From Bacillota bacterium (GTDB lineage: Bacteria > Sysuimicrobiota > Sysuimicrobiia > Sysuimicrobiales > Segetimicrobiaceae), in assembly GCA_021324975.1 (NCBI GenBank), contig JAJPIA010000095.1, positions 1-37,923 on the forward strand: 37,923 nucleotides of DNA. Reading direction: 5' to 3'. Below are positions 2,694 through 7,879 of the stretch, piece by piece. Within the stretch, counting starts at the first letter, position 1. Each line of letters begins with the position of its first letter. Under the pieces are notes generated by a model. The model was not told the origin of the DNA. It worked only from the letters and a program-made list of their open reading frames with translations, and did no database searches. Position numbers and translations under genes: made by a program.

Positions 2694-3659
2694 ATGGAGT
2701 TCAAGGATTACTACAAGATTCTCGGGGTCGCGCGTGACGCCGACCAGAAGGCGATCAGCCAGGCGTTTCGTAAGCTGGCGCGCCAGCACCATCCGGACGT
2801 CAATCCCGGCGACGCCGAGGCCGAGCAGCGGTTCAAGGAGATCAACGAGGCCTACCAGGTCCTCAACGATCCGGAGCGGCGGTCGAAGTACGACCAGATC
2901 CTGGACCTCCGGCAGCGCGGCGGTGGATGGGAAGAGCTGCTGCGCCGCGGGGGCGCGCCGGGCGACGACGGCACGTTTACCGTCTTCAGCGAAGGCGTCG
3001 GGCCCGAGGGGCTTGGACAGTTCAGCGAGTTTTTCCAGCAGATCTTCGGCGGCGCCTTCCGGGCGGGCGCGGGACGCCGCCGCGGCCGGGGTGCGGGCGC
3101 GGACCCCTTCGAGGATCTGCTCCGGCAGCGCGGGGCGCGCCGCGCGGCGGGCGATGTCGAGCGGCCCGTGGAGATCACGCTCGAAGAGGCCTACGGCGGG
3201 ACCACGCGCACGGTCACGATCTCGGACGGCCGGGGCGACCGGTCCCTGGACGTGAAGATTCCGAGCGGGGTGCGGGACGGGCAGCGGATCCGCGTCGCGG
3301 GGCAGGCCAACGGCGGCGACCTCTACCTCCTCGTGCGCGTCCGCCCGCATGCGATGTTCGTCCGCGACGACGACAACCTCTCGGTGGAGGTCGCCGTCCC
3401 GGTCTGGACCGCGGCGCTCGGCGGCGAGGCCGAGGTGCCGACCCCGGGCGGGCCCGTGCGCATGACGATCCCGCCCGCATCCCGCGACGGCCGCACGTTT
3501 CGGCTGCGCGGGCGCGGGATGCCGCACCTGCGCGGTAGGGGCGCGGGTGATTTGCTCGCGAAGATTCGACTCGCCCTGCCGGATCCCCTGACGTCCCGAG
3601 ACCGGGAGCTGCTCGAGGAGATGCGGCGGGCGCACGAGCCGGCGGCCAAGACTTCGTAA
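2694..3659 (+). CDS. dnaJ: DnaJ/CbpA-type J-domain co-chaperone without zinc finger
   Basis: Hsp40 co-chaperone that stimulates the DnaK ATPase. The J domain occupies about residues 1-70, with the HPD motif in Q-H-H-P-D-V-N. A Gly/Phe/Arg-rich linker (about 75-160) follows, then two beta-sandwich substrate-binding domains and a C-terminal dimerisation helix. The four CxxCxGxG zinc-finger repeats of classical DnaJ are absent, so this is a class II, CbpA-like protein of 321 residues. I chose the ATG at 2694 ([12 protein letters not shown]) because the J domain begins there; the frame is open from a GTG at 2673. Its place between grpE and clpB argues that it is the main DnaJ of this operon, as in Thermus, whose DnaJ also lacks the zinc finger. 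Confidence 0.95.
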
Positions 3660-3687
3660 ACCACAATTTTTGACGAGGCGACAATCG

Positions 3688-6297
<2,610 letters not shown>

Positions 6298-6344
6298 CGG
6301 CTCCGCGGCCCGGCCGCGCCTGCGCCGAGCAGGGTGCGCGTACC

Positions 6345-6379
6345 CCGCGGGGAAGTGTTGCCCACCTGCTTCCCCGCGG
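6345..6379 (+). promoter_or_regulatory. Perfect 11-bp hairpin between clpB and the spermidine-synthase-like gene
   Basis: CCGCGGGGAAG at 6345-6355 is exactly complementary to CTTCCCCGCGG at 6369-6379, leaving a 13-base loop. The right arm ends in the first two bases of GGAGGG (6378-6383), the likely Shine-Dalgarno of the next gene. No T-run follows, so a classical intrinsic terminator is unlikely. Control of translation or of readthrough from clpB is the better guess. The pairing is seen directly; the function is inferred. Confidence 0.55.
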
Positions 6380-6388
6380 AGGGCAGCC

Positions 6389-7879
6389 ATTCTTCAACTC
6401 ATCGTCTTCACGAGCGGCGGCGTGCTGCTTGCGCTGGAGATCGTCGCGAGCCGGGTGGTGGCCCCCTACTTCGGCAACTCGATCTACGTGTGGGGCAGCC
6501 TCATCGGGGTGTTTCTGGCGGCGCTCAGCCTTGGGTACTTTCTCGGCGGGCGGATCGCCACGCGCTGGCCGTCGTGGGGCCCGTTCCTTGCGCTCGTGTT
6601 GGCCGCCGGCGTCTGCATCTACCCGATTCCACACGTCGCGGGCGACATTCTCGGCGCGATCGCGGCCCGCGACTACGGGCCGCGGGCCAACCCGCTGGCG
6701 GGCGCCATGGCGCTCTTCTTCCTGCCGAGCGTCCTGCTCGGCACGATCTCGCCGTATGCGGTGCGCCTGAGCGCGCGGTCCGTGGAGGGGATCGGCAACG
6801 TCGCGGGCGTCCTCTACGCGCTGAGCACGCTCGGCAGCATCGCGGGGACGCTGCTCGCGGCGTTCGTGCTGATCTCCGCGTTCGGCGTACGCGCCATCGT
6901 GCAGATCCTCGGCGCGACCGAGATGGCGCTCGCCGTGCTGGGGTTCCTGTGGTCCCGGCGGCTGCGCGGCGCCGGGGCTGCCGCCGCGGTCACAGCCGCC
7001 GTGCTCGCCGCCACCGCCGCGGTGCCGCCCGACGGGCCGGACGTGGTGTACGCCCAGGACACGATCTACCACCGTATCACAGTGAGCGACGAGGGTGCCT
7101 ACCGGTACCTCAGGCTGGACCGGTACTGGCAGAGCGCGGTCGAGCGCGGCGCGCCGCGCGTCACCGTCTTCCCCTACACGGACTACCTGCATCTCGGCGT
7201 CCTGTTCGCGCGGGCGGTGCGCCGCGTGCTGTTCGTTGGGATGGGCGGCGGCACCGCGCCGACCCGGTTCTATCATGACTACCCGCGCGTCCACATCGAC
7301 GTCGTGGAGATCGATCCCGCGGTCGTGGCGACGGCCCGGCGGTTCTTCGCCCTCCCCGACGATCCGCGTGTCGCCGTGCACATGCAGGATGGCCGCCTGT
7401 GGATGCGCCGGACCGTCGATCGGTACGATCTCATCGTCCTGGACGCGTACTTGATCGACACGATCCCGTTCCATCTGGCGACGCTGGAGTTCTACGAGAG
7501 CGCCACGGCCCACCTCACGCCCGGGGGGGCCGTCGTGAGCAACGTGATCGGCGCCATCCGTGGACCGCAGAGCCCGCTGTTCCGGGCGTTCTACAAGACG
7601 TTCCGCACGGTCTTTCCGTCGGTGTACGTGTTCCCGGTCGGCGGTGACGCCGGCGAGGGCCTGCAGAACATCATCCTCATCGGCGCGACCGGCCCCGCGT
7701 TGAGCCCTGCGGACGTGCGGGCGCGCGCCGCGCACGCCGTCGCGGACGGGGCCGTCCGGATCGCCGGGTTTGCCCGCGACGCCGCCGACCTCTATACCGG
7801 CCCGATCGAGACGCAGGACGTGCCGGTGCTGACCGACGACTATGCGCCGACCGATCTGCTTGTCGCATCCGGGCGCTGA
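6389..7879 (+). CDS. Membrane-anchored spermidine-synthase-like protein, probable AUU start
   Basis: A fused integral-membrane and spermidine-synthase-like protein. Residues about 1-210 hold several hydrophobic segments with the family pattern L-E-I-V-A-S-R-V-V-A-P-Y-F-G-N-S and G-Y-F-L-G-G-R. Residues about 220-496 form a Rossmann-type domain with GMGGG (284-288), VEID (306-309) and D-L-I-V-L-D-A-Y. Aminopropyl transfer is not proven for this family, and some members may do something else. No ATG, GTG or TTG lies in frame between the clpB stop and the first conserved residue. An ATT at 6389 sits 6 bases after GGAGG (6378-6382) and places I-L-Q-L-I-V-F at the N-terminus, as in homologues. The only other in-frame start is a GTG at 6212 inside clpB, which would add 59 unlikely residues. 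A sequencing frameshift is the other explanation. Confidence 0.85.
   Translation: MLQLIVFTSGGVLLALEIVASRVVAPYFGNSIYVWGSLIGVFLAALSLGYFLGGRIATRWPSWGPFLALVLAAGVCIYPIPHVAGDILGAIAARDYGPRANPLAGAMALFFLPSVLLGTISPYAVRLSARSVEGIGNVAGVLYALSTLGSIAGTLLAAFVLISAFGVRAIVQILGATEMALAVLGFLWSRRLRGAGAAAAVTAAVLAATAAVPPDGPDVVYAQDTIYHRITVSDEGAYRYLRLDRYWQSAVERGAPRVTVFPYTDYLHLGVLFARAVRRVLFVGMGGGTAPTRFYHDYPRVHIDVVEIDPAVVATARRFFALPDDPRVAVHMQDGRLWMRRTVDRYDLIVLDAYLIDTIPFHLATLEFYESATAHLTPGGAVVSNVIGAIRGPQSPLFRAFYKTFRTVFPSVYVFPVGGDAGEGLQNIILIGATGPALSPADVRARAAHAVADGAVRIAGFARDAADLYTGPIETQDVPVLTDDYAPTDLLVASGR

Follow-up and report, generated by a model that had tools for sequence, protein, structure and literature searches.

The gene that follows clpB in the DNA analysed here raises a simple question: where does its translation begin, when no ATG, GTG or TTG codon (canonical codons, below) is present in frame where the conserved protein sets in? 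The window, by which we mean the whole analysed stretch of 37,923 nucleotides, is one of the 144 contigs of a 4.43-Mb draft genome. Its nearest named loci belong to Bacillota MAGs (91 and 76% identity) and to Terrabacteria group bacterium ANGP1 MAGs. ANGP1 is Candidatus Segetimicrobium genomatis of the phylum Candidatus Sysuimicrobiota, and the window is assigned to this phylum through these named relatives.

The gene behind clpB and its putative AUU start

The gene is located at 6389..7879 on the plus strand and encodes a 496-residue fused MFS/spermidine-synthase-family membrane protein (NCBIfam NF037959, 260.5 bits against a cut-off of 40, residues 13-491; Pfam PF01564). Neither the equivalog of true spermidine synthase, TIGR00417 speE (38.6 against a cut-off of 249.55), nor the best PRK equivalog, PRK04457 (86.8 against 304), was reached, and despite these sub-cut-off scores the best PDB fold matches of the AlphaFold model are aminopropyltransferases. 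The model has a mean pLDDT of 88, and its helical half begins at residue 2 with a helix spanning residues 2-28. Upstream of the gene are dnaJ and clpB, both recognised by Pfam. The clpB open frame as listed, taken from its first start codon, spans 3670..6297 on the plus strand, and 91 nt separate the end of its stop codon from the AUU. Antisense to clpB, an open frame of 1058 residues covers window positions 3214-6390 on the minus strand and is probably a by-product of high G+C.

The first-pass annotation of this DNA had placed the start of the gene at an ATT six bases past a GGAGG, with no ATG, GTG or TTG after the clpB stop. The coordinates bear this out: the Shine-Dalgarno sequence (SD) GGAGGG lies at 6378..6383 and the AUU at 6389..6391, both on the plus strand, which leaves 6 nt between GGAGG (6378-6382) and the start, and the SD scan of the orthologue alignment likewise returned 5 bases at spacing 6. 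From the clpB stop to ATT 6389 there is no in-frame canonical codon. The sole in-frame canonical codon between the upstream stop of the frame and ATT 6389 is GTG 6212, within clpB, and the first one 3′ of it is a GTG at codon 12; the GTG at 6334 is not in frame with the gene. From its sequence context the gene thus appears to begin at AUU 6389.

The start column in orthologues, paralogues and other gene families

The phylum sample comprised 43 genomes of one order, and 42 of these had a match to the gene at 1e-60. Excluded from the counts were G009 (no match at this threshold), G008 and G015 (paralogue type only) and the truncated paralogue L165. The start could be read in 40 of the 43 genomes, 39 by direct alignment and G023 via L094, a locus assigned to this genome by inference, since in both the gene starts at position 618 at the end of a contig. 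The alignment column of the AUU is mostly preceded by an SD and is occupied by ATC in 17 genomes, ATT in 11, ATA in 2, ATG in 6, GTG in 3 and GTT in 1. An AUH codon (AUU, AUC or AUA) is therefore found in 30 of the 40 readable genomes, or in 29 when G019, which has a GTG directly before its ATC and no SD, is set aside as in the strict count. The remaining 10 genomes have other codons there, which makes the AUH start dispensable.

The most trivial explanation would be an error made in sequencing or in assembly, and a draft genome in 144 contigs is the kind of setting in which it might arise. The same codon class in 29-30 separate genomes speaks against it and leaves this explanation with a negligible probability. 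An indel in relatives that restores an ATG or GTG had been named as the observation that would speak against the AUU start; instead, the two congeners of the window genome carry ATA and ATC in this column, with no indel between SD and codon, and a base error or indel near 6334-6390 was discarded because relatives share the codon class.

A second alternative is that the AUU is an inner isoleucine codon, and that the true start lies in clpB, is joined by a frameshift or is the GTG at codon 12. In support of this, the head of a membrane helix tolerates interchange of I, V and M, and some of the genomes have long open frames upstream. The SD distribution argues otherwise. With an SD defined as at least 4 bases at a spacing of 3-11 before the codon, one was present at 28 of the 29 AUH start columns in the 39-genome alignment, compared to 154 (14.8%) of the 1044 internal Ile codons in these genes, which marks the column as a start codon far beyond chance; over all start codons, 36 of the 39 orthologues carry such an SD ahead of the column. 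At a threshold of at least 5 bases the figures are 21 of 29 AUH columns and 31 of the same 1044 internal codons. Codon make-up also differs from that of internal Ile codons, since ATT and ATA together account for 12 of 29 starts as opposed to 131 of 1078 internal codons (expected 3.8; P 7.5e-5 in a simple test that ignores ancestry, and kinship inflates such P values).

The reading frame itself also constrains where else translation could begin. In 12 of the 29 AUH genomes no canonical codon occurs between the upstream stop (at most 100 codons back) and codon 10, and in G021 and G042 a stop at −15 to −13 is followed by no ATG, GTG or TTG up to +57. Conservation of the protein starts at this very column (jump 0.70), with 2% of identities upstream, and the spacing from clpB to the start varies in both length and phase, ranging between −25 and +1864 nt in the genomes with a detected clpB. 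In sister lineages the very column of the AUH codon is occupied by ATG or GTG. A start at codon 12, which is not always GTG, would according to the structural model remove about ten residues of the first helix. Starts within clpB or at codon 12 were accordingly rejected on the stops, the SDs and the helix model, and the inner-codon explanation is very unlikely. The first-pass proposal of an AUU start behind clpB is thus corroborated by the same, SD-preceded column in relatives across the phylum.

Some individual orthologues deserve mention. In G041 (L021 around 1501) GTT occupies the start column behind AAGGAGG. In G019 and G020 (L029, L121), where the search for an SD gave none, the start region overlaps with the stop codon of clpB, which suggests coupled translation. 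The G016 orthologue (G016:C2:5513-7015) was reported with one in-frame TAG within the match.

In a maximum-likelihood tree the orthologues form one clade (100/99) of 40 rows, including x045, which duplicates G022. All five basal groups of this clade, whose deep root is without support, contain AUH rows. ATG has emerged three times (G037-G040, G020 and G028), GTG once (G005-G007) and GTT once (G041); with three ATG events only, the tree gives no support for selection that would disfavour a return to ATG. The paralogue (44-51% identity) carries a GTG one codon earlier at all 14 readable loci, the fifteenth being truncated. Among relatives outside the phylum, many have an ATG 12 nt earlier and a few carry one in the column itself; others show no plain start within the range examined.

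A phylum-wide habit of AUH starts could in principle account for these observations, and gene starts were surveyed in 84 stretches (2.56 Mb), from which 338 families of at least 2 genomes were aligned. The start column had to pass both an SD and a conservation-boundary test, and this left 253 of the 338 families without a resolved column. The 85 resolved families were canonical in 81 cases and AUH in 4, and such a habit was rejected on this strict survey. Restricted to families with at least 5 genomes, 14 of 36 were resolved, 12 as canonical and 2 as AUH, namely infC and the window gene, and these two are the solid AUH families of the survey. Two smaller AUH families were judged artefacts: a 3-member family that is presumably ABC ATPase-like, which has a weak boundary, and a 2-member family that we take to be ribosomal protein S1-like, for which an ATG alternative is available. 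Four canonical families each had one AUH member; in the family that we take to be mreB-like, the ATA of G013 is directly preceded by ATG.

It must be noted that the strict thresholds were chosen after a laxer run had been viewed. That run labelled 34 of 120 families AUH, 75 canonical and 11 undecided, and most of its AUH labels fell on Ile columns inside the genes, where SDs were few. An earlier form of the survey picked inner columns for several families. Another form, in which 313 of 1156 genes came out as "forced non-canonical", was dropped as an artefact because many of its anchors fell on the codon that opens the reading frame, a long way 5′ of the gene itself. As 253 of the 338 families lack a resolved column and the thresholds were tightened post hoc, further AUH genes may exist.

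Leader hairpin and linkage to clpB

The first-pass annotation had also described an 11-bp perfect hairpin whose right arm runs into the SD, and this repeat was found as described. The perfect inverted repeat lies at 6345-6355/6369-6379 with a loop of 13 nt. The predicted fold lengthens the stem to 6343-6356/6368-6382 with A6380 bulged and the rest of GGAGG paired, so that the hairpin as a whole covers 6343..6382 on the plus strand. A switch after clpB that depends on temperature or on readthrough had been proposed on this basis. The predicted pairing of the SD is in its favour, as is the congener G001, whose arms are identical to those of the window.

Several observations weigh against such a switch. 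Close copies of the hairpin sequence were detected in no genomes other than the three of this genus, and the arms are intact only in the window genome and G001; the right arm of G002 lacks one base and carries two substitutions. The hairpin was therefore rejected as a feature that the orthologues share, and also as a genome repeat, since in the window genome it is a single copy with short partial matches elsewhere. Perfect repeats of such size (loop 3-20) number one in the window, with about one expected by chance, and ten shuffles of the window contained 0, 1, 0, 2, 3, 0, 0, 0, 0 and 3. When only the 94-nt leader is considered, 13 of 3000 shuffles contain such a repeat. The 133-nt leader did not stand out by the stability of its fold, which 51 of 200 shuffles equalled (z −0.67). 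By sequence reading the stem is followed by AGGGCAGCCATTC without the U-run of an intrinsic terminator, and Rfam gave no match in the window at gathering score, i.e. no described riboregulator or RNA thermometer. So GC-rich a stem would, moreover, probably be a poor thermometer. Predicted SD accessibility has a median of 0.34 in the orthologues (n=36), the same as in the GTG-started paralogues (0.34, n=14). What speaks for some pairing in the leaders is that a strongly paired SD is also predicted for those of G025, G031, G007 and G036 (unpaired probability at most 0.04).

The AUH codon spans the phylum and the hairpin only the genus, so the codon is independent of the hairpin. With a hairpin confined to one genus and a start kept phylum-wide, even behind a gene other than clpB, control through the hairpin, temperature or clpB readthrough, as first proposed, finds no support, and we regard such a switch as improbable. 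The genus hairpin is possibly, at most, a local extra brake. Within it, the stretch at window positions 6347-6372, GCGGGGAAGTGTTG.CCACC.GCTT, is common to all three congeners and better kept than the hairpin; it might be a binding site or a piece of a short reading frame.

The relation to clpB was tabulated for the readable genomes other than G014, G019 and G023, with an upstream view of only about 1.4-1.5 kb in G035, G036, G037, G039 and G040. AUH starts are adjacent to clpB in 22 genomes and not in 5, and other starts in 4 and 6, respectively; where over 250 nt separate the gene from clpB, canonical starts are thus commoner (Fisher P 0.038, without phylogenetic correction). The AUH start is kept in G034, G035 and G042 behind a different gene, presumably thioredoxin-like as judged from a WCGDC motif, and clpB is therefore not required. 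ATT is also retained in G036, a congener of G035 with no clpB within 1.4 kb.

A weak start as a probable limit on synthesis

The explanation that we favour, at a probability of roughly three in four, is that the AUU is a weak start discriminated by IF3, kept phylum-wide, which would limit the synthesis of this membrane protein. The reading is by analogy with infC, pcnB, sigR and ccpN, and it implies that translation of the gene is probably held low on purpose. The SD would recruit the 30S subunit to the AUU, IF3 would often reject the imperfect codon-anticodon pairing with initiator tRNA, and the outcome would be a low, IF3-sensitive output even though the gene often lies directly behind clpB. 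The protein would still start with formyl-methionine, and output might rise when IF3 is scarce. A non-canonical codon, a spaced SD and conservation in relatives were all found at this locus, and on these sequence features the start would belong to the IF3-discriminated class. IF3 was detected in 40 of the 43 genomes.

The best known member of this class is infC, which has an AUU, AUC or AUA start and whose product IF3 represses its own synthesis. The likeness to infC that had been suggested from the window alone extends to the infC genes of the phylum (L133-L162), in which AUC was found at 23 and AUA at 4 of 30 loci, preceded by an SD, in an automatically chosen column. Both genes share an AUH codon behind an SD and conservation over great distance. 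They differ in that infC forms a feedback on itself, whereas the window gene encodes a membrane protein without a known link to initiation. In E. coli, Binns and Masters are said to have found in 2002 that the AUU start of pcnB limits translation; this work, cited in PMC9410913, would concern the same kind of start on an unrelated protein.

AUU, AUC and AUA are described as targets of IF3 discrimination (PMC4611024), and more IF3 is reported to give less of the correct product from AUU read by a CAU anticodon (PMC10158994). The closest worked case is sigR of Streptomyces, an IF3-repressed gene with a GTC start (PMC5472188). As the window gene would be, it is an IF3-type start gene in addition to infC, with a strong SD and conservation, and the GTT reported for 2 of 34 species (PMC5472188) has a counterpart in G041. 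In contrast, sigR has experimental proof and is documented by 32 GTC and 2 GTT starts in 34 Streptomyces genomes (PMC5472188), while the start described here is of the AUH class, phylum-wide and known by sequence comparison. The S. aureus genes ccpN (AUA) and cvfC1 (AUU) are likewise conserved AUH starts with an extended SD alongside an AUA-started infC, but they encode other proteins and were demonstrated by Ribo-Ret and luciferase, and cvfC1 is reported as conserved among staphylococci (PMC13009471). According to the same source, S. aureus AUU and AUA starts reached about 10% of the output from AUG in one medium, and the ccpN start up to 30% in another (PMC13009471).

A narrower form of the favoured explanation is a plain throttle, in which the codon sets a low fixed level within a heat-shock operon and changes in IF3 are physiologically irrelevant. 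The excess of canonical starts away from clpB is consistent with it, as is the report that, of three weak starts in S. aureus, two showed little or modest change in relative output from one medium to another (PMC13009471). The AUH starts of G034, G035 and G042 behind the other gene, and the four clpB-adjacent genomes without AUH, fit it poorly, and we see the odds of this narrower form as even. More tentatively, and with rather low probability, the IF3-discriminated start may be part of an ancient small IF3 regulon, with infC and the window gene as its only clear members in the sample, derepressed together when IF3 is short relative to 30S subunits during stress or starvation. As pure speculation, if the synthase-like domain makes or binds a polyamine and if polyamines aid weak codons, a feedback loop with initiation could result.

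A switch to AUU is reported to be very rare, at 1 of 61,358 ancestral AUG starts (PMC5622118). In the published accounts on which we draw, conserved non-canonical starts beyond infC concern a handful of genes, within a genus or a few relatives. Listings of the open-licence literature contained no paper on the start of the window gene or on Sysuimicrobiota start codons, and the main text of the phylum paper (PMC11604079) does not contain "start codon", "spermidine" or "polyamine". A start kept across most of a phylum indicates that weak initiation can itself be a conserved trait, and the window gene would be a second natural reporter for IF3 discrimination. Gene callers limited to ATG, GTG and TTG would misplace its start in most members.
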